Source: a virus. From it: a stretch of DNA of 38,840 nt. The stretch spans positions 1 to 38,840 of the IMG/VR virus record IMGVR_UViG_3300025133_000286; one strand, given 5' to 3'. The translations under genes and the position numbers were made by a program. A model generated the notes under the pieces. It did not search any database. It was not told the origin of the DNA and saw only the letters and a list, made by a program, of their open reading frames with translations. This document shows positions 15,834-38,840 of this stretch, piece by piece; the stretch's first letter is position 1, and each line of letters opens with the position of its first letter.

Positions 15834-18119
15834 TCATCGTGCCTTGGTTGCTTGAGTTGGTCGTCCAATGGCAACACCGATATACTGAGTACCGTTGTAG
15901 TTGCTCGTATTGTTGTTAACACCTCTCATCTTGATACCGTTAGAAACATGGTCAACAATCATTGTTGAATTGTAACCTTCGGCATTGTTCAAATTGGCGT
16001 ACAGCATGTCACCAATAGGGTTGCTGGGCGTTCTTACGTTATCACGCATTGCCCAACTCCCTGCTGCACCTGTGGCATTCTTCATTATCGAGAACTCAGG
16101 AGAAATACCCAAGTTGTCAAAGGCACCATCGGCTGAACCATTGCCCGTATAATTCACACTACGGCAGAAATCAGTCTCGAAGAAGCAATACATGATGTAG
16201 TCATGCCCTGCTTTGTTCGTTGCATTGGATGTTGCACCCACTGACACAAGGGCATCTGTTGGTTCTGTGTTATTGAAGTAAACAGAGTTGGCAGCACTGG
16301 CGGCGGTAGTGTCCAAGGCCATATAGTAGCCAGCACCAAGTTCTTCATGGTAGACTGTCCATTGTGCTGCTTGTGTTAAGCACTTAATGATGACCATGAA
16401 TGGTTTCTTGTCACCGGAGTGAGGTACAGTCTGCGCCCCTGCAACACCAGAGTAAGTAGTCGCTGTCATGCCAAGAGTTAAGTTCGTCTTGCAGCCTGAC
16501 GGGGTGATTGTACCTGATCCCCATGAAGAGACTATATTTGGAAGGGAGGCACACCAGCCAACGAAGGTGTTTCCACTTCCGTTCATGGCAACTTCTGTGC
16601 CAAGTGTAAATCCATTACTATCATAACTCAGGACACCATCAGTTTCGGTAGCCTCCGCATTTGTTGCGTTTGAGTAGATAACTTTAGTGCTACCTCGTAC
16701 TGCATCGGTTAAATGATGGTAACGAGTATTGTTACGTTCTTTAATCCATAAGAAATCTGGCTGGAAGTTCAAACTAGTTCTTGCGTGTGTTGCACCTGTC
16801 CCTGTCCAAGTGTCTGTGGCCCAATGATCTGCCAAGTCCTCGGTTATCTCAGGTAAGTTGGTTTCGTTGAGTGCAAGGAAGTCTGTTGTTGGTGTACCTG
16901 ACCAAGCTGTGTCTGAGAAGTTGACATTACAAGTATGGCTTACCCCTGTATAAATATACGCTAATACAGTGCCATCAGGGATAGTTGTCAAAGTACCTTC
17001 AGAAGAACCACCATTCTTGTAGAACTTCATCTCACCAGCATCAGCATCATATTCACACCGGACAATGTCATTGGCAGTATTCCATGTGGCACCGTAAGCA
17101 CCGCTGTCAGTGTTCACACCATCGACATAATATTCTTTATTACCACCAGCCCTGTACGTTGAGTATGTTCCACCACCTGTGGCAGCATTGGCACCACTGT
17201 GACATAGGCCAATCATGTGCTGGTCACTTCCACCTGTAGTCTGTTTAACCTCAAACCGCCACTTACCAGTAGCAGGGAAGGCTATCGTACTATAAGCTCC
17301 ACCTCCACCTGTGACTGTAGTATTGCCATTTGACAATGTTGGCACCCATGACGAAGGTTTATCCAGTGGCGATAGAGTGGCAAGGTTGGCGGTTGGGGTA
17401 TCTACGACTTGCGTGATTGTTCCGTTCTCAGTCCAGTCGTTGTTGTTACCAGAACTGTCTTCACCAAGATCACCTGAGTTACTGAAGTCTAAATGGAAGC
17501 CGTTAGTTCCGTAAGTTCCACTGTAAGCCTTGGCAACCCAATCACCGTTGTCTGCTTCCTCTGCGAAGTCTGTTGGTGCTAGGACTTGACCGTCGATGAA
17601 ATACATGTCTGCATTATAGGCAGAGGAATAAGTATCAGCAGCATGATCACGTCTGCCTATCGTGTGCATGATGGATGAGTTGATGAGGATTGCGCCGTTT
17701 TGAGACAGGGAATTGCTTATAGTATTGCTGCCGCTATTGTTGACATTCAAAGTGACTTCAGGTGTTGCCAGTGAAGTATTGAAAGTAACTACAAAATGGT
17801 AGTAGTCACCACTGTCTCTAAGCTCCATTGTATGTGTGGTGTTGTTCATCTTAACAGAGCCACCAATGTTCAGATAAAAAAGGATGTTACCGTTCTCATA
17901 CTGTATCTGTAGCCTGTTAGTGCTGGATGTCCCCGCATAGAATAACATCTGGGCTGTCGACAGGTCATTTAGTTTACACCAGAAAGACAAGGTGCACTTC
18001 TCTCCGTCTGTAGGTGTGCTTAAAGTCCTGCTCAAGTAACCCGTGCTACCATCAAATAGGGCTGCGTACTCAAGGTTATACTGTGCAAGCAGGGCCTTCA
18101 TGACCATTGGTGCAAACAT
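15834..18119 (-). CDS. LamG/SPRY-type tail fibre or adhesin, 761 aa
   Basis: A 761-residue receptor-binding candidate. Residues about 15-215 look like a concanavalin/LamG jelly roll (GYLSRTLSTP, CTLSFWCKLNDL, MYFIDGQVLAPTDF). Residues about 265-400 look like a SPRY domain (KWRFEVKQTTGG, YYVDGVN, VRCEYDADAGEMKFYKNGG). The C-terminal 300 residues start with FQPDFLWIKERN and are typical of marine phage fibre C-termini. Carbohydrate or surface-protein binding is the likely role. Base use is more GCN- and CCN-rich than in neighbouring genes, suggesting exchange. It starts in a TAATG overlap with no SD, so it is coupled to the preceding fibre gene. Confidence 0.75.
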   Translation of the reverse strand: MFAPMVMKALLAQYNLEYAALFDGSTGYLSRTLSTPTDGEKCTLSFWCKLNDLSTAQMLFYAGTSSTNRLQIQYENGNILFYLNIGGSVKMNNTTHTMELRDSGDYYHFVVTFNTSLATPEVTLNVNNSGSNTISNSLSQNGAILINSSIMHTIGRRDHAADTYSSAYNADMYFIDGQVLAPTDFAEEADNGDWVAKAYSGTYGTNGFHLDFSNSGDLGEDSSGNNNDWTENGTITQVVDTPTANLATLSPLDKPSSWVPTLSNGNTTVTGGGGAYSTIAFPATGKWRFEVKQTTGGSDQHMIGLCHSGANAATGGGTYSTYRAGGNKEYYVDGVNTDSGAYGATWNTANDIVRCEYDADAGEMKFYKNGGSSEGTLTTIPDGTVLAYIYTGVSHTCNVNFSDTAWSGTPTTDFLALNETNLPEITEDLADHWATDTWTGTGATHARTSLNFQPDFLWIKERNNTRYHHLTDAVRGSTKVIYSNATNAEATETDGVLSYDSNGFTLGTEVAMNGSGNTFVGWCASLPNIVSSWGSGTITPSGCKTNLTLGMTATTYSGVAGAQTVPHSGDKKPFMVIIKCLTQAAQWTVYHEELGAGYYMALDTTAASAANSVYFNNTEPTDALVSVGATSNATNKAGHDYIMYCFFETDFCRSVNYTGNGSADGAFDNLGISPEFSIMKNATGAAGSWAMRDNVRTPSNPIGDMLYANLNNAEGYNSTMIVDHVSNGIKMRGVNNNTSNYNGTQYIGVAIGRPTQATKAR

Positions 18120-26398: not shown

Positions 26399-27241
26399 TC
26401 ATTCCTCCACCAAGATACCATGCCAGCCAACACTACATTCACTTGCATTCTGATCACACCAACCACTTACCTTCACAATACCACCTGCTGGTACCTTACG
26501 GTGTACAGTCAGTGGACCTGTGCTGCCCTTACGGATGTATGCTGGATCAATGAATAGGTAGGCTGGGTTGACATCACCACTGGGTGTTGCTGTTGCACGT
26601 AGACGGATGTTGATTCTTTTATCCTGTGCTTCCTCTGCATGCCAACCAAGTACTGCAAGACAATGTCCTGTGGGTACCTTGAAGTGAGGGACCAGTGATT
26701 TATTACCACCCTGTGCAATCATGTCATATACGTGGCCTGTGCCTGTGGCTGTCTTGTATATTTTGATGTGATCTGCAGAGACACCATTACTTCCTGTCCT
26801 TGATGCATACATGTCATTGATGAAGCTGATGTCACTGGCAAGGGCCACTGCAGTCGTACCATTGGTTTCATAGGCCATTGTGACTTCATTTCCACTGCCA
26901 TCTAGGTATTCAATGGTTACTTCCTGTACACCTGTGCCAGCAGCACTGTCATTGCCTGACTCACTGACTAGGCTCATCTGTTCACCTGAGTCACTGGGTG
27001 TTGGTATTAATTGGTCACCTGCAGGGCTGAGTTCATTGCCTCTCCAGATATCCTCACCTGCTGCTGCGACAACCATTGACTCACGTTCACCCATCTTGTT
27101 GATGTAACGCTTACCTGATACATTACCCAGGATGACATCAAGGTTATCTTCACTGTTGGTGTCGCTGACTGGCAGTGGGTTGGCTGTGCTGACTGTTCTT
27201 ACTGTGCCAGTGGAGTCTTTGTAGATTATATCATCAGACAT
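26399..27241 (-). CDS. Putative beta-rich virion protein, 280 aa
   Basis: A 280-residue acidic protein starting MSDDIIYKDSTGTVRTVST. The N-terminal half is loop-rich (Asp/Ser/Gly); the C-terminal half is a set of beta-strands (HFKVPTGHCLAVLGWHAE, INIRLRATATPSG, KVPAGGIVKVSGWCDQ) like a jelly-roll. It may be a head fibre or decoration protein. It sits, unusually, between the two terminase genes. The start shares its A with the upstream TAA (TAATG). Confidence 0.65.
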   Translation of the reverse strand: MSDDIIYKDSTGTVRTVSTANPLPVSDTNSEDNLDVILGNVSGKRYINKMGERESMVVAAAGEDIWRGNELSPAGDQLIPTPSDSGEQMSLVSESGNDSAAGTGVQEVTIEYLDGSGNEVTMAYETNGTTAVALASDISFINDMYASRTGSNGVSADHIKIYKTATGTGHVYDMIAQGGNKSLVPHFKVPTGHCLAVLGWHAEEAQDKRINIRLRATATPSGDVNPAYLFIDPAYIRKGSTGPLTVHRKVPAGGIVKVSGWCDQNASECSVGWHGILVEE

Positions 27242-27741
27242 TATTTAACTACTCTCAATTGGATACGTTCAAGATCATCGACTAAGTCTTCTTCAAGTGC
27301 TGCTTGTTTCTTTTTCTCTGCTTCAATGGATGCTTTGGTGGGTCTGCCTTTCTTTGGCTCCCAGCCTTTGTCTGCAAGATACTTTGCCGCATTGAATGCC
27401 TGTGCAGTATCTCCTTGGGCCAGTGAGTTAACTTTACGTATACTCTTGCTAAGAAGCCTAACTTCAAGCTCTTCATCCCATGCTGCCTTATGTTTCTTGA
27501 AGAATGTACTTCTACACAGTTTAGTCCAATGAGGATATGAATCAAGATGATCAATTGCAAACTGATAGCCAGTTGGGTCTTCATACTCCAAGTAGAGTCT
27601 CTTCATTGATGGTAGACCACCATGATCTTGATTCTTGAGTGTGAAGATTGGTTCTAGTTCGTTTCTGTCTTCAGGTATGTACGACTCAAGGAATAGTGAC
27701 TGAGTTCTGAATCTGTTCATCTTGTCTAGGTATTTAGCCAT
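27241..27741 (-). CDS. terS: Putative terminase small subunit
   Basis: A 166-residue basic protein, first gene of the late operon. The pattern FTLKNQDHGGLPSMKRLYLE, then EDPTGYQFAIDHL and HWTKLC, then AKYLADKGWEPKKGRPTKA, followed by a Lys/Glu coiled coil, matches small terminase/DNA-maturase proteins of several marine phages. It would recognise the packaging site and load the large subunit. The ATG at 27741 has AGGAG seven nt upstream; an ATG at 27789 in frame lacks an SD. Its mRNA has a leader of about 205 nt from the promoter at 27954-27982. Confidence 0.72.
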   Translation of the reverse strand: MAKYLDKMNRFRTQSLFLESYIPEDRNELEPIFTLKNQDHGGLPSMKRLYLEYEDPTGYQFAIDHLDSYPHWTKLCRSTFFKKHKAAWDEELEVRLLSKSIRKVNSLAQGDTAQAFNAAKYLADKGWEPKKGRPTKASIEAEKKKQAALEEDLVDDLERIQLRVVK

Positions 27742-27828
27742 GGTCTGCTCCTGATAATAAAGACAATGCCACTTAGTGGAGACAACCATAAGGAAGACAA
27801 AATAATCCTTAAGTCTACTCTACTATAT

Positions 27829-27953: not shown

Positions 27954-27982
27954 ATTATACCATGTGAATAAAACACTGTCAA
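27954..27982 (-). promoter_or_regulatory. Consensus sigma70 promoter for the late operon
   Basis: On the minus strand, TTGACA (27982-27977) and TATAAT (27959-27954) are separated by exactly 17 bp, with TGG immediately before the -10 (extended -10). All twelve hexamer bases match consensus. The predicted start is near 27947, giving a leader of about 205 nt to the small terminase ATG. Such a strong promoter should be served by host RNA polymerase from the moment of entry unless held off. Confidence 0.93.
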
Positions 27983-28095: not shown

Positions 28096-28132
28096 GGTAT
28101 TTTCTATGAGATAATTTCTTACTGCCTTTGAA

Positions 28133-28427: not shown

Positions 28428-28555
28428 TTTGAACGATATGTTCAATATAGAAACCCTATAAACTAGCCAGTAAGTCATTGAATTGACTATCCTTTATACA
28501 TTAGACTAAACTAATTTAAACATATTGTTCAATCCTATTTAACGTTTCGTTCAAT
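28428..28555. promoter_or_regulatory. Three TTGAAC/GTTCAA-type dyads (operator or enhancer array)
   Basis: Three related 18-19 bp elements lie at 28428-28446 (TTTGAACGATATGTTCAAT, TTGAAC-N5-GTTCAA perfect), 28515-28533 (TTTAAACATATTGTTCAAT) and 28538-28555 (TTTAACGTTTCGTTCAAT). The right half GTTCAAT is identical in all three; the left half decays in copies 2 and 3. They end about 60 bp upstream of the sigma54-like site and also flank a weak sigma70-like pair. They may be enhancer sites for a sigma54 activator or repressor operators. Confidence 0.65.
28483..28512 (+). promoter_or_regulatory. Weak sigma70-like promoter between the dyads
   Basis: TTGACT (28483-28488) and TAAACT (28507-28512) are 18 bp apart; each hexamer departs from consensus. 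The predicted start would fall in the second dyad (28515-28533), an arrangement that would allow repression. It is the best rightward sigma70 candidate I find upstream of the early genes. Confidence 0.35.
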
Positions 28556-28616: not shown

Positions 28617-28633
28617 TTGGCACGCTTCATGCA
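28617..28633 (+). promoter_or_regulatory. Sigma54 (RpoN)-like promoter for the early genes
   Basis: TTGGCACG-N4-ATGCA matches the sigma54 consensus TTGGCACG-N4-TTGCA at all but one position and keeps the obligatory GG and GC exactly 10 bp apart (GG 28619-28620, GC 28631-28632). No -10 hexamer is correctly spaced to treat TTGGCA as a sigma70 -35. The start would be near 28644, about 60 nt before the first early gene. Confidence 0.65.
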
Positions 28634-28645
28634 ATGTTAGGGGTA

Positions 28646-28676: not shown

Positions 28677-28690
28677 TTTAACTGATTAAA
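28677..28690 (+). repeat. Early-gene 14-bp dyad, copy 1
   Basis: TTTAACTGATTAAA, followed immediately by CGGAG, the ribosome binding site of the first early gene. It has 5-bp symmetric arms (TTTAA/TTAAA) around CTGA. Confidence 0.75.
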
Positions 28691-28703
28691 CGGAGTAATG
28701 ACC

Positions 28704-29228
28704 ATGAAATTCACACTCAATGAAGCCCAAGCCAAAACCTACAAATCAGCAACCAAAACCCTAGAATTGATAGGCTCAAATAGTTCAATCATACAGGATT
28801 GCAAAGACAATACAGAGGATGCTCAAACCACCTTGCTTAAAGACTTGAAAGCATTTGGTGACGTCGTTCTTTTCTGGAATAAATATTACTCTGATAAAGG
28901 ATGGTCATTCAAATACTACAATGCAACCAAGAACATGATGGTTGATCACGAAGGTAGTAAGGCAACGGACGACACAGAGAACAATGGTAAAACAATGAGT
29001 GTTTATAAATCCCTATCCTGTAAAGCATATGGTAATTTAGACGGTGATCTTAGTGCAATCTATACATGGAAAGAGCTAAAAGAGGCCGCCAATCCTAAGA
29101 GCGAAGAACAACTTGTTGAAATTGACGTTAAGAAAGTATTCACCAATCAAATGAAAAAGCTTTCAACTAGCCAGCGCATTGAAATTTACCGGGCAATGAA
29201 CGACAAGCTAGCCAATAACATTAAGTAA
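28704..29228 (+). CDS. First early gene, unknown protein, 174 aa
   Basis: A 174-residue mostly helical, soluble, Lys-rich protein (FTLNEAQAKTYKSATKTLEL). The middle is aromatic (VVLFWNKYYSDKGWSFKYYNATKN) and the C-terminus is charged (KKLSTSQRIEIYRAMNDKLANN). The start at 28704 is preferred over 28698 because GGAG (28692-28695) is 8 nt away rather than 2. It is the first gene after the sigma54-like promoter and is closed by a two-tier stem-loop, so it looks like a separate unit. Word use (many GCC, CAA, AAA codons, few CTA-CGT pairs) differs from the downstream operon, suggesting separate acquisition. Its position suggests host takeover; no domain is recognised. Confidence 0.85.
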   Translation: MKFTLNEAQAKTYKSATKTLELIGSNSSIIQDCKDNTEDAQTTLLKDLKAFGDVVLFWNKYYSDKGWSFKYYNATKNMMVDHEGSKATDDTENNGKTMSVYKSLSCKAYGNLDGDLSAIYTWKELKEAANPKSEEQLVEIDVKKVFTNQMKKLSTSQRIEIYRAMNDKLANNIK

Positions 29229-29240
29229 ATCTAATACAAG

Positions 29241-29293
29241 CCAGACATTAAGCCAGCATGACTTCAGTTGTGCTGGCCTATAGTCATGTCTGG
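29241..29293 (+). terminator. Two-tier stem-loop with an alternative fold
   Basis: The outer stem CCAGACAT/ATGTCTGG (29241-29248, 29286-29293) encloses an inner stem GCCAGCA/TGCTGGC (29252-29258, 29271-29277); all 15 pairs are perfect. CATGACT/AGTCATG (29257-29263, 29282-29288) can instead pair and would disrupt both. It begins 12 nt after the stop of the first early gene. No U-tract follows, so it is a factor-dependent terminator, processing site or switch rather than a simple intrinsic terminator. Confidence 0.6.
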
Positions 29294-29306
29294 GTTATTG
29301 ATTGCA

Positions 29307-29320
29307 TTTAATCAGTTAAA
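29307..29320 (-). repeat. Early-gene 14-bp dyad, copy 2
   Basis: TTTAATCAGTTAAA, the exact reverse complement of copy 1. With copy 3 it forms a perfect 16-bp inverted repeat (29305-29320 with 29339-29354) around 18 bp. Confidence 0.75.
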
Positions 29321-29338
29321 TGGTGTCTCGCTGGCCTG

Positions 29339-29352
29339 TTTAACTGATTAAA
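29339..29352 (+). repeat. Early-gene 14-bp dyad, copy 3
   Basis: TTTAACTGATTAAA, identical to copy 1, upstream of the gene at 29376. Its last A begins an in-frame ATG (29352) that I do not take as the start because it has no SD. Confidence 0.75.
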
Positions 29353-29375
29353 TGGACTGGTTGAAAGGAAATAGG

Positions 29376-29654
29376 ATGAACGGTTTGACGTATGTACCCA
29401 CTGATGCAGTGAAGGGTAAGGTGCTGTATCGCAGGGAGATAGTGGCGAGGGTCACAGAGAACAGTGAAGAGGATTGTCATGCAGTGGATTGCAGAGGCAG
29501 AGAGATGAGTGGCACAGTGAAGGAAGTGTTTGATTGGATACACTCTGTTAAGTGGAGCAGCGTGATTGGTGCTAACCCACTGACTGCAACCCAGTCTCAT
29601 ATGAGGATGGAGCAGAAGAGAGCACCAAGTAAGAAAAGATTTGCATTGAGTTAA
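29376..29654 (+). CDS. Hypothetical early protein, 92 aa
   Basis: A 92-residue protein starting MNGLTYVPTDAVKGKVLYRR and ending in a basic tail (RMEQKRAPSKKRFALS). The ATG at 29376 follows AAGGAA at a good distance; the frame opens further upstream at 29352 without an SD. The N-terminal half has alternating charged and hydrophobic residues suggesting beta-strands. Preceded by the third 14-bp dyad. Function unknown. Confidence 0.7.
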   Translation: MNGLTYVPTDAVKGKVLYRREIVARVTENSEEDCHAVDCRGREMSGTVKEVFDWIHSVKWSSVIGANPLTATQSHMRMEQKRAPSKKRFALS

Positions 29655-29655
29655 G

Positions 29656-29669
29656 TTTAATCAGTTAAA
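29656..29669 (-). repeat. Early-gene 14-bp dyad, copy 4
   Basis: TTTAATCAGTTAAA, same orientation as copy 2, followed by TGGAG, the ribosome binding site for the gene at 29683. It lies in the 28-bp gap between two early genes. Confidence 0.75.
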
Positions 29670-29682
29670 TGGAGTAAGTAAG

Positions 29683-29895
29683 ATGAGATTCACAGCAAAA
29701 GAAATGCACATACATTTAGTGGAAGTAATGGGATACACTGAGGCAGAGAGATACTATGTAAGGAAGTTTAATAGTGATACAGGTACGTACCTTGGTAGTC
29801 GTAGAATAATGAAGGATGACTATCGACATACACACTGGTATGATACAAAAGACAGACGAGTGGACACACAGCCAATCAATTACATGGTTGATTGA
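29683..29895 (+). CDS. Hypothetical early protein, 70 aa
   Basis: A 70-residue basic, Tyr/His-rich protein (MGYTEAERYYVRKFNSDTG, then DDYRHTHWYDTKDRR). GGAG lies eight nt before the ATG, directly behind the fourth dyad. A 51-bp gap follows. The composition suggests a small nucleic-acid- or protein-binding factor; no family is recognised. Confidence 0.7.
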   Translation: MRFTAKEMHIHLVEVMGYTEAERYYVRKFNSDTGTYLGSRRIMKDDYRHTHWYDTKDRRVDTQPINYMVD

Positions 29896-29946
29896 GTGTC
29901 TCAATTCAGACAGTAACTAACAGTATAAACTAAAGGGACTAATATT

Positions 29947-30216
29947 ATGTTTAAAATTGAAAAGAATGTACCAATGCCAACCCAATTCCGTGACAAAGCA
30001 GAAGGGTACTCAGGAATGTATCCTTTTGAAGAGATGGACAAAGGAGATAGCTTCCTCATTACCTGCTCACCTGTATTACGTGAGAATACACGCAGTAAAG
30101 TATACTCAGCAGCAATGCAGTACAAGAAAAGATGGGACGAACACTTCAGCCTACGTACCCGTATTGTCAAAGATGGTATCCGTGTATGGTGTGCCTCATC
30201 AGTACATAAGGGGTAG
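29947..30216 (+). CDS. Conserved phage protein with GDSF motif, 89 aa
   Basis: An 89-residue protein whose layout is one I have seen in many phage proteins of unknown function: FKIEKNVPMPTQFR, then YPFEEMDKGDSFLI, a basic helix (RSKVYSAAMQYKKRW) and a C-terminal TRIVKDGIRVWCA strand. The arrangement (strand, GDSF turn, helix, strand) suggests a small DNA-binding fold of the kind used by early regulators. AAGGGA precedes the ATG by about 9 nt. Confidence 0.75.
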   Translation: MFKIEKNVPMPTQFRDKAEGYSGMYPFEEMDKGDSFLITCSPVLRENTRSKVYSAAMQYKKRWDEHFSLRTRIVKDGIRVWCASSVHKG

Positions 30217-30220
30217 TGTC

Positions 30221-30379
30221 ATGAGTAAGCAACAGGGATGGACTACCTACCCAATGACCAAACAATACACCGTTGATGCTGATTGTACTGACTACAGTTG
30301 GGAAGAGCTTGTGTTGTCTGGATGTGGTGATCAGTACAATGAAGAGCACATTGATGCCTTGATGGAGGAGTATGAGTGA
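30221..30379 (+). CDS. Small acidic protein, 52 aa
   Basis: A 52-residue acidic protein (MSKQQGWTTYPMTKQYTVDA, ending EEHIDALMEEYE). AGGGG lies about eight nt before the ATG at 30221. Its stop overlaps the next start (TGATG). Function unknown. Confidence 0.6.
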   Translation: MSKQQGWTTYPMTKQYTVDADCTDYSWEELVLSGCGDQYNEEHIDALMEEYE

Positions 30380-30582
30380 TGAAATACACAATAGAATCTC
30401 AATGTGATAGGGATTGGTATGTCACAGTCACAGATGACAGGGATGGATGGGTGATCAGTTTCATTGAGAGTACCAGCTACCACCCAACTATTAATCTGTA
30501 TGCCACCACTGCCAATGATGCCTTGAAGATGGCACGTATCATTGCAGCAGGACATGACGCAATATTAAATGAAGGAGATTGA
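30379..30582 (+). CDS. Hypothetical protein, 67 aa
   Basis: A 67-residue protein of strand-strand-helix type (KYTIESQCDRDWYVTVTDD, GWVISFIEST, then ANDALKMARIIAAGHDAIL). The ATG at 30379 shares a base with the upstream stop and has GGAGGAG at the right distance; a GTG one codon earlier is less likely. Function unknown. Confidence 0.68.
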   Translation: MKYTIESQCDRDWYVTVTDDRDGWVISFIESTSYHPTINLYATTANDALKMARIIAAGHDAILNEGD

Positions 30583-30583
30583 C

Positions 30584-30796
30584 ATGACTAGACTACGTAC
30601 AATTGAGAAGAGACTAGCTGACTTGACAGGTGCCGTGATCATCATTGGTATTGGTGTGGCACTACTGTTCTTGACAGGGTGTGTGACAGTCACAACAGAC
30701 AGTGACTATGAGTGGACAGGACCAGTCATGGGTACTGATACGTCATTCCCACCCAAGGTAGACTATACTGTATGGAGAAAGACCAATGAAAAATAA
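30584..30796 (+). CDS. Small lipoprotein, 70 aa
   Basis: A 70-residue protein with a basic N-terminus, a hydrophobic core (AVIIIGIGVALLFL) and a lipobox LTGC, so Cys38 should be lipidated after signal peptidase II cleavage. The mature part is about 33 residues (VTVTTDSDYEWTGP). Small early lipoproteins of this size include phage superinfection-exclusion proteins (the T5 Llp type) and Rz1-like outer spanins. It lies among early genes, away from the lysis genes, which favours exclusion, though this is an inference. AAGGAG lies six nt before the ATG. Confidence 0.75.
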   Translation: MTRLRTIEKRLADLTGAVIIIGIGVALLFLTGCVTVTTDSDYEWTGPVMGTDTSFPPKVDYTVWRKTNEK

Positions 30797-31064
30797 AGAT
30801 GAACAACCAGTGTTGGTCAGGTTCCATGATGTGGATATGGAGGATGACTATACCTATGTCCTCTGTCAGTCACGCTGCTCTGCTGATACCTATGTAAGTG
30901 ACATGATCTTCTCCCATAAGAACAAGGCATGGACCATTGAGTTGATACCTGTCACGCTAGGTGAGACAGAGTACAGGAGTGTGGTTTGGGAAGTCGATGA
31001 GGCGTACACCTGTGATGATCAGATGAAATGTGTACGTAATATATCCAAGGAGATAGACAAGTGA
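30786..31064 (+). CDS. Hypothetical protein, 92 aa
   Basis: A 92-residue soluble acidic protein with four cysteines (LCQSRCSAD, TCDDQMKCVR), which could make a small metal site. It has alternating strand segments (DDYTYVLCQS, AWTIELIPVTLG, YRSVVWEVDE). It overlaps the lipoprotein gene by 11 bp and the next gene by 4 bp. Function unknown. Confidence 0.68.
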   Translation: MKNKDEQPVLVRFHDVDMEDDYTYVLCQSRCSADTYVSDMIFSHKNKAWTIELIPVTLGETEYRSVVWEVDEAYTCDDQMKCVRNISKEIDK

Positions 31065-31222
31065 GTAGCTGGGGCAAGCGTGAGTACCTGCTTAGACTGG
31101 TGGGTACTGGCACGAATGACAAGAGGATGGTGACTGCTGCTCTCTTGTACTATCACAGTGGTGTCCCACTTGAGGATGCCATGGAGTACATTGGTAACTT
31201 GAAGAAGAAACTGGAGAAGTAA
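31061..31222 (+). CDS. Small basic protein with GTG start, 53 aa
   Basis: A 53-residue basic helical protein (SSWGKREYLLRLVG, then VTAALLYYHSGVPLEDAMEY and a Lys-rich end). It begins with GTG overlapping the previous stop (GTGA), with AAGGAG nine nt upstream. No ATG start is available before residue 23. Function unknown. Confidence 0.6.
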   Translation: MSSWGKREYLLRLVGTGTNDKRMVTAALLYYHSGVPLEDAMEYIGNLKKKLEK

Positions 31223-31223
31223 G

Positions 31224-31424
31224 ATGAGGACATTCTACATTGTACTTGGGTACAGGAATGAGGTACCACACCACAAAGAGAACCAATTTCGTCACCACCA
31301 AACACTGAAGTCTGCCATGGAAGAAGCAACAAGACTGACCAAGAAGTATAACAGACGGCACCGTGTACTGAAAGCAATAGGACAAGTACGTCCAAGTATC
31401 GAGTGGCAAGGAGCATTGAGATGA
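31224..31424 (+). CDS. Small basic protein before rIIA, 66 aa
   Basis: A 66-residue Arg/Lys/His-rich protein: an N-terminal strand (RTFYIVLGYRNEV) then a long basic helix (SAMEEATRLTKKYNRRHRVL). GGAG lies eight nt before the ATG, and its stop overlaps the rIIA start (ATGA). The basic surface suggests nucleic-acid or membrane-surface binding. Function unknown. Confidence 0.65.
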   Translation: MRTFYIVLGYRNEVPHHKENQFRHHQTLKSAMEEATRLTKKYNRRHRVLKAIGQVRPSIEWQGALR

Positions 31425-33400
31425 TTGTAGAAAAACAAACACATGGTGTCACTGCCAAAGGCATGACTGAGAGTGCTGAGTGGGGTATCAAAGCAACACC
31501 TGAAGCATTGAGAATACTGATGGAAGGACTGTTCAGTAACCCCAAGTCAGCCATCATCAGGGAGTTACTTGCCAATGCCTTTGATGAGAGTGATGACGTT
31601 GAGGTACACCTACCTACCTACTTAGACAGTAAGCTACGCATCAGGGACTATGGTGGTGGCATGACACATGAGTTCATGATGGGTGGGTTCACTCAGCTAT
31701 TCAACAGTACCAAAGCAGACAGTAACAGTAAGGTGGGTGCCTTTGGTCATGGTCGTACTAGTCCGTGGTCATACACTGACAGTTGGACAGCCATCAGTTA
31801 CACAGATAAGAAGCGTACCTACTCAGCATACATGGATGAGACAACAGGTTACACCATCAGCCTACTTGCTGAGGAGGACATGGATGGTCTACGTCAAGGC
31901 TATGAGGTCATCATACCAACCAAGAGTGGTGACACATATGACTTCGAGAGTACTGTCACTGAGTTCTGTAAGAGACTACCAGTACAACCCAAGGTATACG
32001 AAGGAGAAGAACTAAAAGATATACCAGTGGTTGAGTACACCATGGTTGGAGACAAGTGGAAGCTACGTAAAGATGGTGGCAACAGGTGGCAGGACAGAGG
32101 CTATGCAATCATGGGCACTGTCGGTTATCCTATTAATTGCAGTGACTTAGAGGGTGACATAAGAAAACTAATGGCATCACCCATTGACTTCACCTTCAGT
32201 ATTGGTGAGTTAGATATTGTACCATCACGGGAAGGACTACGTTACACTGACAAGACCATCGCTGCACTCAACAAGAAGGCACTGGATGTACGTACACAAC
32301 TAGATGCTGTGTTGGAGGAGAGACTTGAGGACTGTGCCACTGAGTGGGAGAGGATGGTCATGACCAACAAGGTCAGTGCTGACCTACATGACATAATCAC
32401 CATTGGTAAGGGAACTGTCAAGGTTGAGCATGAGATGTGGCAGTTTGAACGTAGGTATGGTGGTGACTTACTGGCAAGATCATGTGGTCACTGGCCCCAG
32501 CTACGTCCAACTGAGAATACAATCATCATAGTCAATGACAAAACAACACACCGCAATGAGAAGGTGGACTATTACCTACGCCAGAACAACTGCAATCTAC
32601 AATTCAGTGATGGTCACCAAGTGTTCATGCTACGACAGTTGAAAGATGAGGACATCACTGACAAGTTGGCTGCACTTGGTGATCCACCTGTGTTATATAT
32701 GTCACAGTTACCACGTCATCCTGATGCTGTAATACAGGCCAAGCTTGACAAGAATACACCGAGAGCCAAGAAAACCATCACTAAACTGAAGAGGTACACT
32801 AGGCACGGTGACCTACATGATGCCAATAGGTATGATACGAGTAAGGGTGGTGTCTATGTCAACATCAGGAACAACCAAATACATGACAGCAAGTACACTG
32901 TGTACCATATGAAGGAGATGATGCATGCTTTCAATCTAAATGTAGTGTATGCATTGCCGGGTAGTGTCAGTGAAGCTAAGTTCCTCAAGTCAGGTAGGTG
33001 GTGCAAATTTGACACATACATTGAGAGACTGATGTGTGCAAGAGCGAAAGGATTTGACAAGGGCATCATCAGACAGTACTATAAGGACATCAAAGAGAAT
33101 CAACTAAGCTATCATGATAAACAGATAGTACGTTTAGTCAAAGATAATTACAGTGTACTTAACCTTAACTATAAGGGTCTACTCTGTAAGGATAAAGAAA
33201 GAACTACTAATTACACTACACTTAGACTACTCAGGGAACATGGTTACTTAGACTATGACCATACCAAGGAGGATGATGAGAAGATCATTGATACAGGCAC
33301 CATCATCAAGAAAGTAATTGACAAGCACCCCATCTTGAGTCTATACAATGGTATGCAAGATGATATCGTAATCAAATACATTAACAACGGAGAAGTATAA
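31421..33400 (+). CDS. rIIA: rIIA-like GHKL-ATPase
   Basis: A 659-residue homologue of the T4 rIIA protein. The GHKL fold is clear: N-box ELLANAFDE (E48, N52, D55), G1 box RDYGGGM (D76, then GGG), and G2 box GAFGHG (about 106-111), as in gyrase B/Hsp90/MutL-type ATPases. In T4, rIIA and rIIB act at the membrane, affect lysis inhibition and counter the lambda RexAB exclusion system. ATG 31421 with AAGGAG seven nt before is preferred over an upstream GTG. Its stop overlaps rIIB as TAATG, as I recall is also true of T4. Confidence 0.88.
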   Translation: MIVEKQTHGVTAKGMTESAEWGIKATPEALRILMEGLFSNPKSAIIRELLANAFDESDDVEVHLPTYLDSKLRIRDYGGGMTHEFMMGGFTQLFNSTKADSNSKVGAFGHGRTSPWSYTDSWTAISYTDKKRTYSAYMDETTGYTISLLAEEDMDGLRQGYEVIIPTKSGDTYDFESTVTEFCKRLPVQPKVYEGEELKDIPVVEYTMVGDKWKLRKDGGNRWQDRGYAIMGTVGYPINCSDLEGDIRKLMASPIDFTFSIGELDIVPSREGLRYTDKTIAALNKKALDVRTQLDAVLEERLEDCATEWERMVMTNKVSADLHDIITIGKGTVKVEHEMWQFERRYGGDLLARSCGHWPQLRPTENTIIIVNDKTTHRNEKVDYYLRQNNCNLQFSDGHQVFMLRQLKDEDITDKLAALGDPPVLYMSQLPRHPDAVIQAKLDKNTPRAKKTITKLKRYTRHGDLHDANRYDTSKGGVYVNIRNNQIHDSKYTVYHMKEMMHAFNLNVVYALPGSVSEAKFLKSGRWCKFDTYIERLMCARAKGFDKGIIRQYYKDIKENQLSYHDKQIVRLVKDNYSVLNLNYKGLLCKDKERTTNYTTLRLLREHGYLDYDHTKEDDEKIIDTGTIIKKVIDKHPILSLYNGMQDDIVIKYINNGEV

Positions 33401-34254
33401 TGAACACCCCATATATCATGTCTGAGCGTAGCCTCACTGCCTTCATTGATGGTCGTAGCTACACAGTTGATAACACCCATGCCAACTGGGATAAGATTGT
33501 CTTGGCTGTGAAGCACGAACAGTTCGATGCAATCCCCAAGCTGATTGACTTAGGCAAGGCCATCACTGAGTTTGGTGAAGGACATTATGTCAGTGTCAAG
33601 GGTGGTGTCGTGTACTACAAGGACAAGCCAGTACATAACACATTGACCAAGCGTATCCTTGACATGATGACACAGGGCTTTGATGTCTTGCCCATTGTCA
33701 CCTTCATGGACAGGCTGCATGACAACCCAAGTTACAGAGCAATCCAAGAACTCTACCTGTTCCTTGAGACTAATGACCTACCAATCACCAGTGATGGACA
33801 CTTCCTTGCATGGAAGAAGGTCAGCCATGACTACAAGGACATCCACAGTGGTAGGTTTGATAACTCAGTGGGCTGTGTATGTGAGATGCCACGTCAGGAA
33901 GTAGACGATGAGCGTGACAACACATGCAGCAATGGACTACACTTTTGCAGTGAGAGTTACCTTGAACACTATGGTTGGAGCAATGACTGCAAGGTAGTGG
34001 TTGTCAAGATCAATCCGAAGGACGTGGTGTCCATCCCATCTGACTATGCCAATGCAAAGGGACGGTGCAGTAGATACGAGGTGATCTTAGATCAAGGTGA
34101 CTTCGAGCACAAAGATGTGGCAGTGTACATCGAGTCTGATCTACCCGGACCTGATCGCTGCTTTGATCCCGGTGATGGTCACAGTCTGTGTGGTGACTAT
34201 GAGTGGGAGCATGAGGTAGAGTTGGACTGTGATAACTGCAAGGCTAACCAATAA
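33400..34254 (+). CDS. rIIB: rIIB-like protein
   Basis: A 284-residue homologue of the T4 rIIB protein (312 aa). Recognisable blocks are LTKRILDMMTQGFDVLPIV, FMDRLHDNPSYRAIQELYLF, LPITSDGHFLAWKKV, NTCSNGLHFCSESYL and VVVKINPKDVVSIPSDYANA, ending with a Cys/Asp-rich tail (DCDNCKANQ). It pairs with rIIA next door, translated through a TAATG junction with GGAG eight nt upstream. The role by analogy is lysis timing and protection from host exclusion systems. Confidence 0.88.
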   Translation: MNTPYIMSERSLTAFIDGRSYTVDNTHANWDKIVLAVKHEQFDAIPKLIDLGKAITEFGEGHYVSVKGGVVYYKDKPVHNTLTKRILDMMTQGFDVLPIVTFMDRLHDNPSYRAIQELYLFLETNDLPITSDGHFLAWKKVSHDYKDIHSGRFDNSVGCVCEMPRQEVDDERDNTCSNGLHFCSESYLEHYGWSNDCKVVVVKINPKDVVSIPSDYANAKGRCSRYEVILDQGDFEHKDVAVYIESDLPGPDRCFDPGDGHSLCGDYEWEHEVELDCDNCKANQ

Positions 34255-34278
34255 GCACAGCTAACGCATAAACATGGA

Positions 34279-34312
34279 TGGTACTGGATGTCTCAATGGA
34301 TGTCCAGTACCA
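34279..34312 (+). terminator. 10-bp hairpin after rIIB
   Basis: TGGTACTGGA (34279-34288) pairs perfectly with TCCAGTACCA (34303-34312) around a 14-nt loop, in the 79-bp gap after rIIB. No T-run follows, so it may be a processing site or partial terminator separating rIIAB from downstream genes. Confidence 0.5.
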
Positions 34313-34333
34313 CCACACTGAAGGAACTAAAGG

Positions 34334-34468
34334 ATGAGAATTACATACGAGTACTACTGTCTACTACGTCACCATACGTGGAGTCAGGATAGAGTCTACT
34401 CCAAGTCCAACTACAATGGTACACACCATTACTTCACGTACCATCTAGCACAGGGAGAGACACAATGA
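34334..34468 (+). CDS. Small Tyr/His-rich protein, 44 aa
   Basis: A 44-residue basic peptide (MRITYEYYCLLRHHTWSQDR, then YSKSNYNGTHHYFTYHLAQ), unusually rich in Tyr and His. AAGGA lies eight nt before the ATG, and the stop overlaps the next gene (ATGA). Function unknown. Confidence 0.6.
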   Translation: MRITYEYYCLLRHHTWSQDRVYSKSNYNGTHHYFTYHLAQGETQ

Positions 34469-35070
34469 GTATTAAGATAAGTACAACAGAGAAGATGCCC
34501 AAGGGTTGTGGCTCATGGTCACTGCCAGCCCGGACTACATGCCCCGGCAGTATCAACCCACTGACACGTCAGGTCTATGAGGTATGTGCTGAGTGCTATG
34601 CCACCAAGGGACGATACAAGTTTGGTAAGGTACAGGCTGCACGTCAACACAACAAGACTGACTGGCGCAGAGATGAGTGGGTAAGTGACATGGTGCAGTG
34701 GATAGGTACCAAGGAATACTTCAGATGGTTCGACAGTGGTGACTGTTACTGTGAGGAGTTGGCCTCAAAGATTTATGATGTCCTCTACTTCACTGAGTAT
34801 ACCAAACACTGGTTGCCTACTAAACAACAGTGGTTACCTGAACGCTTCGACTGGCCTACTTGGAACACAACAATCAGACTGAGTAGTCCCATCAAAGATT
34901 ACTACACTGCTGGTGTACATCGAAGTGTTGTCTTGACAGAGGATACGTATGACAACTACAAAGGAACTGATGTACATCTCTGCCCTGCCCCATCACAGGA
35001 GAATAAATGTGGTGACTGCCGAGCATGCTGGGATAATACCATTGCAGTAATTGGATATAAAGAACATTGA
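34465..35070 (+). CDS. Gp88-like Cys-rich phage protein
   Basis: A 201-residue protein resembling the phage 'gene product 88' family. It has an N-terminal cluster CGSW...TTCPGS...CAECYATKGRY, then a central FRWFDSGDCYCEELASKIYD followed by FTEYTKHWLP, and a C-terminal HLCPAPSQ...CGDCRACWD with three more cysteines. The cysteine layout suggests Fe-S or zinc binding, and the CxxCYA and SGDxxxxE segments echo radical-SAM-like phage families, but neither activity is established. GGGAGAG precedes the ATG. Confidence 0.75.
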   Translation: MSIKISTTEKMPKGCGSWSLPARTTCPGSINPLTRQVYEVCAECYATKGRYKFGKVQAARQHNKTDWRRDEWVSDMVQWIGTKEYFRWFDSGDCYCEELASKIYDVLYFTEYTKHWLPTKQQWLPERFDWPTWNTTIRLSSPIKDYYTAGVHRSVVLTEDTYDNYKGTDVHLCPAPSQENKCGDCRACWDNTIAVIGYKEH

Positions 35071-35087
35071 TAGAAGGAAGTGAAACG

Positions 35088-35279
35088 ATGAGATGCATGA
35101 CATGTAACAAAGAGACACTGGGTTGGGATGATAAGGTCGAAGGCCCTGTGTGTGAGCAGTGTATGACTGTGGTCCGTGATGTTGGACATGAGTGGTACCT
35201 ACGTGACAACAATCAGTGGCCTTTCAAGGATGATGAACCTACAATCATGGATGCAATCAGGAGGACAGATGATGAGTGA
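35088..35279 (+). CDS. Zinc-ribbon-like protein, 63 aa
   Basis: A 63-residue protein with two CxxC pairs (CMTC at 3-6 and CEQC at about 22-25), the pattern of a small zinc ribbon, followed by an acidic tail (DDEPTIMDAIRRTDDE). ATG 35088 has AAGGAAG at the right distance; an in-frame TTG at 35067 is less likely. It could be a small regulator acting on transcription or on host proteins. Confidence 0.7.
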   Translation: MRCMTCNKETLGWDDKVEGPVCEQCMTVVRDVGHEWYLRDNNQWPFKDDEPTIMDAIRRTDDE

Positions 35280-35751
35280 TTTCAAGCCAGACTACCTGTG
35301 CAACAAGGCTGACTGCCAAGGTCGGGATACTTATGACGCTGTTGTCCAAGAGTTGCTAATGATGAGGCGGCTTCGTGAAGATTACATACGCATAGCCGCT
35401 GTGAAGAAGACTGCTTACAAAGAGATAGAGCAGCTTAAAGGTGAACTTAGAGCAGCGGCAGCGAATATCGAACTACTGCGGCGTGACATAAAACATTTAA
35501 ACTTCTCCCACGGAGAGCTAGAGCAGCTTCGTGAAGATTACCTAGTGTTAAAAGAAATCTTTGGGGGCACGCCACAGTTCAAAGCATTTGAGTTAGCTAA
35601 AGAAAAATTGTGTCACGAAAATATACCAAAGGAGCCAAGCGAGCCGACAGAAGATGCTTATGTTGCCGTTGTGTTAGGTGAACCTGTGAAGTCTGTCCGT
35701 TATGGTTCAGTTGGTGGCGGTAGCTTTGAAGAGGAGGCACAAGATGATTAA
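35272..35751 (+). CDS. Coiled-coil protein with internal repeat, 159 aa
   Basis: A 159-residue protein. CNKADCQGRD near the N-terminus is a possible metal site; about residues 20-110 are coiled coil (ELLMMRRLREDYIRIAAV, EQLKGELRAAAANIELLRRD). The segment LREDY(I/L) is repeated, encoded by a 16-bp direct repeat. AGGAGG lies seven nt before ATG 35272; an ATG three bases earlier is also possible. GCGG- and CTT-CGT-rich codon use is unlike the flanking genes, pointing to recent transfer. Function unknown. Confidence 0.75.
   Translation: MSDFKPDYLCNKADCQGRDTYDAVVQELLMMRRLREDYIRIAAVKKTAYKEIEQLKGELRAAAANIELLRRDIKHLNFSHGELEQLREDYLVLKEIFGGTPQFKAFELAKEKLCHENIPKEPSEPTEDAYVAVVLGEPVKSVRYGSVGGGSFEEEAQDD
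35370..35541 (+). repeat. 16-bp direct repeat within the coiled-coil gene
   Basis: GCTTCGTGAAGATTAC at 35370-35385 and 35526-35541, offset 156 bp (52 codons), in the same frame. It encodes LREDY twice and marks an internal duplication of coiled-coil sequence. Confidence 0.7.
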
Positions 35752-35968
35752 GTGGATGATCTATAGTGTTAAATGCCCTCACTGCTGTAATACCTATCAT
35801 GGGGATGACGCCCGTAAGATGTTGAAAGAACATTCATGCCCTGTCTGTAATGCGACCACTTGTGGGAAATGCACACATACAGCACCACCCCTTGTTGAAA
35901 ACACATCAACAGGAACAAGAGAATGTTGCGAATTTTGCAAAGGGACTTTGAGGGTACTCAATGACTGA
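35744..35968 (+). CDS. Multi-CxxC zinc-binding protein, 74 aa
   Basis: A 74-residue protein with CPHC, CPVC, CGKC and CEFC pairs plus extra His and Cys residues, enough for two zinc-ribbon sites. The first half (YSVKCPHCCNTYHGDDARKM) resembles a Zn-ribbon/C2-C2 finger. ATG 35744 has GAGGAGG six nt upstream and overlaps the previous stop. It lies in a compositionally distinct block of three genes. It could be an anti-host transcription or nuclease-blocking factor, but nothing in the sequence shows it. Confidence 0.7.
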   Translation: MIKWMIYSVKCPHCCNTYHGDDARKMLKEHSCPVCNATTCGKCTHTAPPLVENTSTGTRECCEFCKGTLRVLND

Positions 35969-36281
35969 TACATATGATGATGGCAATTATGCCATAAGCA
36001 ACGGCATTAAGATAAAACTCCCTGATAACAAGTGCTATGACAAGCAGCAAGGGCCAAGGATTTATATCAACGTGGCTATGACACCAGCAAGCTGCGTGAC
36101 TACCTATACAAACGAGGAGGTCAAGATGAACATGATTGAGAAGGTGGCGAGGGCTATTTGCATCGAATGTCGCATTGACGAAAGCAAATGGCTACAACAT
36201 AGCGGATTAGCAGAGGCGGCAATCAAGGCTATGATGGAGCCAAGTGAGGCTATGGCAGAGGAGGAACAAGATGAAGACTGA
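35961..36281 (+). CDS. Hypothetical protein, 106 aa, possible internal start
   Basis: A 106-residue frame in two parts. Residues 1-55 are polar and unlike the rest. Residues 56-106 begin NMIEKVARAICIECRIDES and contain AEAAIKAMMEPSEAMAEE, a pattern common in small phage proteins whose full form starts at this Met. The internal ATG at 36126 has GAGGAGG five nt upstream, a better SD than that of 35961. The locus may encode a 51-residue protein, with the upstream part an independent or degenerate frame, or two products. It overlaps the primase-helicase start. Confidence 0.65.
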   Translation: MTDTYDDGNYAISNGIKIKLPDNKCYDKQQGPRIYINVAMTPASCVTTYTNEEVKMNMIEKVARAICIECRIDESKWLQHSGLAEAAIKAMMEPSEAMAEEEQDED

Positions 36282-37884
36282 TAGTACCTTCACTGAACAT
36301 ACTAACTGTGAAGGATGTGGATCAAGTGATGCCAATGCTGTGTACAGTGATGGTCATACATATTGTCACGCCTGTGAAACATACTTACGTGGTGATGATG
36401 TACCACCAGACAAACCAAAGGAGAAGAGAGTGAGTAACACCAAGCTACGACATGACGGCAAAGACAGTTCGTTACATGATCGTAACATCAGTAAGGAGAC
36501 AGCCATGCACTTCGGTGTGCAGGTAGTAGCCAAGGGACAGGACAGGACACACCACATCTACCCTTACTACAAGGATGGACAACTGGTGGCACAGAAGATA
36601 CGTGACATCAAGGAGAAAACATTCCATGCACTGGGTGACATAGGTGAGGCTGAGTTGTTTGGTCAACACCTTGGTACTGGTAAAAAATTCCTGACAATTT
36701 GTGAGGGTGAGTGTGATGCCATGGCTGCGTGGCAGATGATGAAGTTCCCTGATGCCACTGTTGTGTCTGTCAAGACAGGTGCCAACCTGAAAGACTTCAA
36801 GGATGAAGCTACCCATGAGTGGGCTGACAACTTCAATGAGATACGCATTGCCTTTGATGGTGACGAGAAGGGACAGACAGCAGCCAAGAGACTGGCTGAA
36901 CTGTTCAGTCCCGGCAAGGCAAAGATCGTTGAGTTCACTGGTGAGTACAAAGACCCCAATGATTTCCTACTCAAAGGCAAAGAGAAGGAGTTCAATAAAC
37001 TATGGTGGGATGCAAAGACACATCAACCTGACGGACTAGTCAACGGACGTGACCTGAAGGAACGCATCAAGAACAAGAAGAATGTGAAGTGCATCGCTGG
37101 TCCTTGGTCAGGCATGGATGAGTTGACCTATGGGTTCAGGACTGGTGAGATGTGGACACTGACTGCTGGTTCAGGCATGGGTAAGACACAGATACTACGT
37201 GAACTTGAACACCACTTCCTCAAGACAACTGACTGGGACATTGGTGCCCTCTTCCTTGAGGAGACAGCAGAGGACAGTGGTGAGGGACTCATGAGTATTG
37301 AGTGTAACAAACCCTTGCACCTGCCTGATACCCATGTCAATGATACAGAGTGGGAACAGACATACGAGAGAACACTTGGTACTGGACGCATCACGTACTA
37401 CGATGCCTTTGGTGAGTCAGACATTGACAGGATACTCAGTCGTATCAGATATCTAAGCAAAGGACTGGGGTGTAAGGTGATCTTCCTTGACCACATCAGT
37501 ATCATTGTCAGTGATCAAACAAACGGTGATGAACGTAAAGCCCTTGACTCCATAGCAACCAAGCTCAAGAAGTTGACAATGGAACTGGATGTACTGCTAC
37601 TCATGGTCAGTCACAGTAAACGTCAGAGCAACAAGCCACACGAAGAAGGTGGCACCACCAGCCTCAGTGATCTACGTGGCACTGCTGGCATAGGACAGCT
37701 AAGTAATATTGTCCTTGGTTTTGAACGTAATGGACAGCATGAAGACCTACGTGAACGTAACACCACGACAGTCAGAGTACTGAAGAATAGATTTAGTGGG
37801 TTGACAGGTCCATCATGTAGGTTGTATTATGATAACGTCACTGGCAGATTGAACGAAGAAGAGATGGAGGTAGATGATGACTAA
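36271..37884 (+). CDS. T7 gp4-like DNA primase-helicase
   Basis: A 537-residue bifunctional replication protein. The zinc finger has C13/C16 and C32/C35; the TOPRIM primase core has CEGECDAM (E145) and AFDGDEKG (D196, D198). A linker leads to the RecA-type helicase, with Walker A GSGMGKT (300-306), Walker B VIFLD (403-407) and the SLSDLRGTAGIGQLSN motif near 464-479. The very acidic C-terminus (EEEMEVDDD) is like the T7 gp4 tail that docks on the DNA polymerase encoded downstream. ATG 36271 has GAGGAGG upstream. Confidence 0.93.
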   Translation: MKTDSTFTEHTNCEGCGSSDANAVYSDGHTYCHACETYLRGDDVPPDKPKEKRVSNTKLRHDGKDSSLHDRNISKETAMHFGVQVVAKGQDRTHHIYPYYKDGQLVAQKIRDIKEKTFHALGDIGEAELFGQHLGTGKKFLTICEGECDAMAAWQMMKFPDATVVSVKTGANLKDFKDEATHEWADNFNEIRIAFDGDEKGQTAAKRLAELFSPGKAKIVEFTGEYKDPNDFLLKGKEKEFNKLWWDAKTHQPDGLVNGRDLKERIKNKKNVKCIAGPWSGMDELTYGFRTGEMWTLTAGSGMGKTQILRELEHHFLKTTDWDIGALFLEETAEDSGEGLMSIECNKPLHLPDTHVNDTEWEQTYERTLGTGRITYYDAFGESDIDRILSRIRYLSKGLGCKVIFLDHISIIVSDQTNGDERKALDSIATKLKKLTMELDVLLLMVSHSKRQSNKPHEEGGTTSLSDLRGTAGIGQLSNIVLGFERNGQHEDLRERNTTTVRVLKNRFSGLTGPSCRLYYDNVTGRLNEEEMEVDDD

Positions 37885-38068
37885 GAAAGAAAGCTACGCG
37901 ATTAAACCTAAGAAGTCTGGCTACCTTGTTGAGGTTGTCTACTACACAGACGAAGTCATTAAGGAAGGATACAACAGCGGTAACCACAGAACAGCAACAG
38001 AGTTCCACTGTTTCAGTAGTATGTCTGACTTAATATGTTACCTTGAAGAGGAAGAAGATGATGACTAA
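37877..38068 (+). CDS. Small protein between helicase and polymerase, 63 aa
   Basis: A 63-residue protein with strand segments (YAIKPKKSGYLVEVVYYTDE) and a very acidic C-terminus (CYLEEEEDDD). Two adjacent ATGs exist; GGAGGT at 37866-37871 favours 37877. It overlaps the helicase end and the polymerase start, so it is translated in tandem with both and may be a replication accessory. No family is recognised. Confidence 0.7.
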   Translation: MTKKESYAIKPKKSGYLVEVVYYTDEVIKEGYNSGNHRTATEFHCFSSMSDLICYLEEEEDDD

Positions 38069-38840
38069 GACTATGGTGGTGGATGCAGAGGCCAATGGTT
38101 TACTTGATGATGCCACTGTCGTGCACTGCATAGTATGTAAAGACTACGACACTGGTGAGGTGTTCAAATTTGTACAAGGAGAATGTTATGAAGAGTTCAA
38201 AGAGTTCGCAGAGTCAGTCGATGTCTGGATCGGACACAATATCATCAGCTATGACATACCGTTGTTCAACAAACTCTTGGGCATCGACATCAAGTTGTCC
38301 CACCTCAGAGACACAATGGTACTCTCAAGACTCTTTGGTTCAGATAGAGTCACACCCAAGGGAGCCAAGTCAGCCCACTCCCTCCAAGCATGGGGAATCA
38401 GACTAGGTAAACACAAGGGTGATCACACTGACTTCACCACGTACAGTCCAGAGATGCTGACGTACTGTGTGAATGACGTTGAGGTTACCTACCTTGCCTA
38501 CTGTGCCCTGCTAATTGAGGGTAAGGGATACAGTGATCAATGTATCAAGTTGGAATACCAGACTGAGTATCTATTGAGTAAGATGCAACGTAAAGGTTTC
38601 TACCTTGATCAAACCAAAGCCCTCAAGTTGTACCAAGACTGTAAGACTGAGGCTGATGACATAGAGGAGGACATACTACATGACTTTCTACCAAAGGCTA
38701 AAGAGATTAGAGTTATCACACCACGATATAATAAAGATGGTCGTATGTCTGTGGTGGGTCTTAAGTGGCTTAATTCTTGGGAGCTTCCTACTGTTGCTGG
38801 TGAGTTTACTCGTATAGACTGGGTGCCATTCAACCTAGGC
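38058..38840 (+). CDS. Family A DNA polymerase, N-terminal part (cut by window end)
   Basis: The N-terminal 260 codons (from 38061) of a T7 gp5-like replicative polymerase. The proofreading 3'-5' exonuclease is intact: Exo I VVDAEANGL (D8, E10), Exo II GHNIISYD (N60, D65) and Exo III YCVNDVEV (Y135, D139). The polymerase fingers and palm lie beyond position 38840. Adjacent ATGs at 38058 and 38061 are both possible. It works with the primase-helicase just upstream. Confidence 0.9.
   Translation, partial: MMTKTMVVDAEANGLLDDATVVHCIVCKDYDTGEVFKFVQGECYEEFKEFAESVDVWIGHNIISYDIPLFNKLLGIDIKLSHLRDTMVLSRLFGSDRVTPKGAKSAHSLQAWGIRLGKHKGDHTDFTTYSPEMLTYCVNDVEVTYLAYCALLIEGKGYSDQCIKLEYQTEYLLSKMQRKGFYLDQTKALKLYQDCKTEADDIEEDILHDFLPKAKEIRVITPRYNKDGRMSVVGLKWLNSWELPTVAGEFTRIDWVPFNLG

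Follow-up and report, generated by a model that had tools for sequence, protein, structure and literature searches.

Textbook lytic phages begin infection from strong σ70 promoters, for which no activator is needed. In bacteria, promoters read by σ54 (RpoN) carry a −24/−12 element with the consensus TGGCACG-N4-TTGCW (PMC3538637, PMC4371752), and we found no report of σ54-type early promoters in lytic phages in the open-licence literature. A putative phage-encoded σ54-like protein has been suggested for Pectobacterium phage Q19 (PMC7693777); that case is a weak HHpred protein match, whereas the case presented here is a promoter element. For SIO1, a member of the Cobavirinae, an RNA polymerase has not been reported (PMC6775973).

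The window analyzed here is the whole of IMGVR_UViG_3300025133_000286, a 38,840-base IMG/VR virus record from a marine phage, and represents a fragment, because a DNA polymerase gene overruns its right end and its two ends do not overlap. The terminase is 62–68% identical to those of SIO1, P12053L, ICBM1–3, and CRP-4/5 (all Cobavirinae, Zobellviridae), and the homologous terminase, portal, and capsid, together with opposed replication and structural arms, identify a Cobavirinae-like podophage; judged solely by this family resemblance, the phage would be lytic. The structural genes (4293–27789) run leftward on the minus strand and are separated by a divergent gap of 908 bp from the early/replication arm on the plus strand (28698–38840), which contains ORF1, rIIA-like, rIIB-like, GP88-like, and primase-helicase genes and the DNA polymerase gene cut by the contig end. 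The rIIA-like (31403–33400) and rIIB-like (33400–34254) genes, which match PHROG lysis inhibitors, are adjacent, a pair better known in larger phages than in a podophage of ~39 kb; a cobavirus-like ribonucleotide reductase gene with a match to the B12-dependent (class II) insertion domain is located at 581–2320. In ICBM1 and ICBM2, the counterpart of the divergent gap contains the genome ends, with direct terminal repeats of 172 and 159 bp, respectively. A plus-strand sequence in the window (28101–28117), TTTCTATGAGATAATTT / TTTCTRTGAGATAATTT with a C-rich run after it, is kept across the family, and the ICBM1 counterpart of TTTCTRTGAGATAATTT lies just within the annotated ICBM1 terminal repeat. 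This sequence thus probably marks a terminal-repeat boundary or packaging site, and its placement in ICBM1 suggests that the packaged left end of the window phage is probably near 28120, with the σ54-type element ~500 bp inside. The first host promoters of T7-like phages are found at a roughly similar distance from the left end.

The σ54-type element, located on the plus strand at 28617–28633, reads TTGGCACG-CTTC-ATGCA (TTGGCACG at 28617–28624, CTTC at 28625–28628, and ATGCA at 28629–28633), with a predicted +1 near 28644. Direct reading bore out the description in the first-pass annotation, as GG (28619–28620) and GC (28631–28632) show a spacing of exactly 10 bases and the sole mismatch to TGGCACG-N4-TTGC is the first T of the −12 box. 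When the whole window was scanned with a matrix derived from 14 RpoN promoters published for Mesorhizobium (PMC3538637), the element was the clear top match with 18.2 bits, compared to 14.4 bits (14.35 before rounding) for the runner-up and 17.4–23.0 bits for the published promoters; further one-mismatch matches at 16588 and 18147 are inside late genes and scored only 12.3–12.4 bits. First-order shuffles of the 908-bp intergenic region never matched the score of the element (0 of 5000), while 1% of whole-window shuffles attained it; a separate mismatch-count test yielded P = 0.0001 for the intergenic region and P = 0.10 for the whole window. Within the intergenic region, the element stood at 21.2 and the second-best sequence at −0.3, with one site in the window. 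These chance figures carry a look-elsewhere cost, because the motif was picked during the first reading of the sequence; a chance origin of the element in the intergenic region is negligible.

The first early gene, ORF1, is encoded on the plus strand at 28704–29228, with an alternative ATG at 28698; the ATG at 28704 is better placed, being preceded by GGAG (28692–28695) 8 nt upstream. The element is located 64 bp ahead of ATG 28698 and 70 bp ahead of ATG 28704, in agreement with the initial estimate of 60–80 bp. ORF1 encodes a small helical protein, the family of which is conserved among element-bearing relatives; its AlphaFold model is mostly helical and fairly confident (pLDDT 83), a search for fold matches to this model returned none, and single-sequence scans with ORF1 and the primase-helicase gave no relatives. 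Three copies of TTTAACTGATTAAA, located before ORF1 (28677–28690) and before the next small ORF (29307–29320 and 29339–29352), might act in the regulation or translation of the early unit. Using σ70 promoter weights set by hand, the best rightward candidate before ORF1 was TTGACT-18-TAAACT at 28483 (P ~0.05 against shuffles), and other rightward candidates were borderline or at chance level; the initial statement that the early unit has no good σ70 promoter is thus roughly right, with this borderline candidate as a reservation. A perfect σ70 promoter with TG (TTGACA-17-TATAAT) was identified on the minus strand at 27954–27982, upstream of the leftward structural operon.

Relatives were collected from IMG/VR as contigs by terminase alignment and major capsid protein, and the stretch preceding the first structural gene (27241–27789 in the window) was extracted for comparison, a test with a smaller look-elsewhere cost than the chance figures for the window. 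A group of related contigs presented the pattern YTGGCAYR-N4-TTGCA at the corresponding place, with one to four copies each, while the reversed pattern, used as a control, had no match across the same 18 kb of these regions; in the longer contigs of this carrier group, the sites were limited to the early control region. The first early gene belongs to the ORF1 family in seven loci (L017, L044, L047, L103, L112, L146, and L149). Conservation in related phages, which had been proposed as a check, was therefore found in a group of uncultivated relatives but not in the closest cultured ones, as the element was absent from the cultured Cobavirinae and other Zobellviridae tested (SIO1, P12053L, ICBM1/2, and CRP-4/5); most other relatives had no site in the corresponding region. 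Searches found neither close relatives of the window genome nor, elsewhere, an exact copy of the window element plus its downstream bases.

Only 10 of the 44 sites in the window's family point toward the early genes. Five loci (L109, L114, L149, L023, and L030) contain only tandem sites, none of which faces the early genes. Where a locus has a site directed at the early genes, that site is in most cases part of a head-to-head pair, TTGGCAYRNNNNTTGCA-TA-TGCAANNNNYRTGCCAA or a near variant. The −12 boxes of head-to-head pairs are separated by 1–3 bp and tandem pairs are 26–29 bp apart, so close that RNA polymerase would presumably be unable to fill all such paired sites simultaneously. Good rightward σ70 promoters are present downstream of the element in L075 and L138. 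With a single site directed toward ORF1, the window is, by its sequence, the most promoter-like member of the family.

The element also occurs in phages outside this family. The dyad pattern was found in 13 IMG/VR stretches, including contigs of 50–122 kb with many additional sites; reversed-pattern matches occurred nowhere, and whole-contig counts reached 15 sites in 9 kb in contig G025, which presented sites in both orientations between mostly co-directional genes. A tandem-pair scan of IMG/VR identified at least 120 further stretches (0 for the reversed tandem-pair control), from which 78 new loci were retained. Most of these loci represent a second family of podophages, the terminase of which has a T7-type domain and is not closely linked to that of the window. 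In this family, the sites separate a terminase/portal/endolysin arm from a primase-helicase arm (58, 43, 55, and 18 loci; no exceptions), and 218 of 252 sites face the primase-helicase (early) arm, with 34 facing away. This orientation evidence is strong, but does not amount to many independent events, since sites within a family share descent and the counts overstate independence; an AT-hook-bearing protein of this family, which formed three clusters, was too conserved for counting independent lineages. One locus (L243) repeats the arrangement of the window, with TTGGCACG-TTTG-ATGCA followed, after 40 bp, by an ATG with a ribosome-binding site.

Among cultured phages, the T5-like Vibrio phages VCPH, VB_Vhy_SJ1, vB_ValS_X1, and Thalassa carry sites in the pre-early region beside A1/A2, and the Pseudomonas phages phiK7A1 and Bitten carry site clusters. 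Escherichia coli T5 has one isolated match at 52 kb and a pre-early region without the element. Zero sites were found in ICP1, ICP2, PA11, CW02, CVT22, and MEP401, and Vibrio phage ICP1, a candidate carrier on account of an 18-base match, was consequently rejected; vB_VpS_BA3 lacks the strict pattern and has two TTGGTA variants. At two loci of T5-like Vibrio phages (L198:3050–3200 and L194:4100–4210), several copies of the DnaA-box-like sequence TTATCCACA adjoin the dyad within the pre-early gap. The dyad was also sought in ~85,000 genomes of bacteria and archaea, where it turned up in one contig only, 4.3 kb in length and binned in a Verrucomicrobia MAG; this contig, with five perfect sites (L193:130–215), is probably a phage fragment. 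In our estimate, this recurrent element is very probably functional.

Several features of the sites are informative about the factor that reads them. When one mismatch was permitted anywhere, T, GG, Y, and GC were invariant across phage sites and the reversed control was empty; RpoN promoters tolerate the same changes as these sites do, at the first base (position 0), from C to T, at the first T of TTGC, and at the last A/T. Compared column by column with published promoters, the phage sites reached a similarity of 0.71–0.84, against at most 0.54 for permuted columns, and the ATGC found in the window in place of TTGC is the most frequent −12 deviation in phage sites and is frequent in the published list. 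An extra T conserved after TTGCA in phage sites is outside the RpoN consensus. None of 20 carrier records tested encodes a σ54 activator domain (PF00158), and blastp comparison of unrelated carriers yielded no common candidate binding protein; the shared proteins were limited to replication enzymes, nucleotide enzymes, and a few hypothetical proteins. This result points to a host factor. The tolerance profile, the lack of an encoded activator domain or common binder, and the near-absence of the dyad from ~85,000 genomes favor a host factor, foremost σ54, and leave the reversed and face-to-face copies unexplained. A recognition element for host RpoN is hence the best reading, and σ54 probably reads the element. 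For the σ54-type early promoter proposed in the first-pass annotation, the element proved to be real and non-random, to recur at early regions, and to show σ54-like tolerance and promoter-like placement, but 34 of 44 family sites face away from the early genes, as arrays or head-to-head dyads.

Other explanations can be weighed. A different host DNA-binding protein, such as a two-domain regulator, might recognize TTGGCAYR together with TTGCA at a distance of one helical turn and control nearby σ70 promoters in either orientation, with the likeness to σ54 being coincidental. The mixed orientation and the head-to-head dyads would fit such a protein, as would the fixed head-to-head and tail-to-tail spacings, the preferred tandem spacings of 26–29 and 36–38 bp, which are one helical turn apart, and the additional conserved T. 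The match of the tolerance profile to σ54 at every position and the strong orientation in the second podophage family argue against it, and the presence of the dyad in only one contig among the ~85,000 genomes suggests that no host regulator uses the dyad form; we consider this explanation unlikely. The TTGCA-NNN-TGCAA center of some dyads resembles a LuxO site, but most dyads have a 2-bp center instead. Alternatively, the element could be a true site for the σ54 holoenzyme that acts mainly as a trap, roadblock, or silencer, with closed complexes tying up polymerase or blocking opposing σ70 transcription. While this would account for arrays, dyads, and sites facing away from genes, and for an activator not being encoded, the site in the window is single and promoter-like, the sites of the second family face early genes, and 1–15 sites per genome are few for titration, making this role distinctly improbable.

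An operator, iteron, or packaging site read by a phage-encoded protein would be consistent with the iteron-like tandem spacing and with a position near the genome end and the GC-skew minimum; the lack of a common candidate binder among unrelated carriers, and the sharing of one motif by T5-like phages and by podophages that differ in their terminases, render it very unlikely. Even less probable, in our judgment, is that the match arose by chance and that the early genes start from the σ70-like sequence at 28483 or from another promoter: although the whole-window probability of a one-mismatch site is 1–10% and the other one-mismatch matches sit in coding sequence, relatives carry the element at the very same place, before the same gene family.

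For the window genome, the leading single explanation is that the element acts as an early promoter served by host σ54 (RpoN) RNA polymerase; we rate this reading as likely, at about even odds. According to this reading, σ54-RNA polymerase would form a closed complex at the left genome end as it enters the cell and remain there until an active host enhancer-binding protein triggers transcription, starting near 28644; this activator would be supplied by the host, as the phage, as far as tested, encodes none. We infer that RpoN binds the site, that the site has promoter activity, that a host activator takes part, and that upstream repeats serve as enhancers. Candidate enhancer repeats in the window include a palindrome, TTGAAC-N5-GTTCAA, at 28429–28445, ~190 bp upstream of the element, and GTTCAA half-sites on the plus strand at 28527–28532 and 28549–28554; GTTCAA is present in five copies in 497 bp, for which tests were borderline (P 0.04–0.06). 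Upstream repeats are strong in L047, L103, L037, and L023 and borderline in the window. Palindrome arrays upstream of the element are Fur-box-like (TGATAATGATTATCA) in L047, L103, and L112 and of a CTACA type in L037 and L023, and these repeats occupy places expected of activator sites, which makes them possible enhancers. The Fur-box-like arrays contain ~ten 7-1-7 palindromes (TGATAATGATTATCA, TGAGAATGATTCTCA, and TGCGAATGATTCGCA) on the minus strand of the loci, just upstream of the element (L047:5490–5760, L103:2780–3080, and L112:3250–3480); as the window lacks them, these palindromes were rejected as a common enhancer. Comparable Fur-box-like stretches are present in L017, L075, L138, and Vibrio phage vB_ValS_X1. 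Because relatives often carry several copies, reversed copies, or head-to-head pairs, the element there must additionally serve an orientation-independent role, which may consist of holding polymerase or blocking other transcription.

Tentatively, several unrelated phage groups might have independently placed arrays of host σ54 (RpoN) sites in the first-entering part of their genomes, which would make σ54-RNA polymerase and the activators of stress, nitrogen, motility, or quorum responses a common trigger of infection; we hold this broader proposal to be possible, though somewhat doubtful. If it is true, a σ54 start would stay silent until a host activator spends ATP, and the phage could delay infection until, or detect, a given nitrogen state, envelope stress, motility, or cell density. 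A direct test is feasible, because the element can be scored from sequence and is present in Vibrio and Pseudomonas phages that are in culture, and because deletion of RpoN is possible in many bacteria. If another host protein reads the element, an unrecognized common factor would be acting at phage early regions.

Compared to described systems, the phage element resembles bacterial RpoN promoters in its bases, its spacing, the changes it tolerates, and a score within the published range, but differs from them in that phage copies often form tandem arrays and head-to-head dyads and in that many copies in the window's family face away from the nearest operon. With the T5-like Vibrio phages, the genomes of which are unrelated, the window shares the element, which in those phages is located in the pre-early region, within the first-entering DNA; Thalassa, unlike the window, also has a strong σ70-type sequence. 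The window shares with the Cobavirinae/Zobellviridae (SIO1, P12053L, ICBM1/2, and CRP-4/5) two opposed arms with the genome ends between them, whereas the left ends of cultured Cobavirinae, unlike that of the window, are without a σ54-type site.
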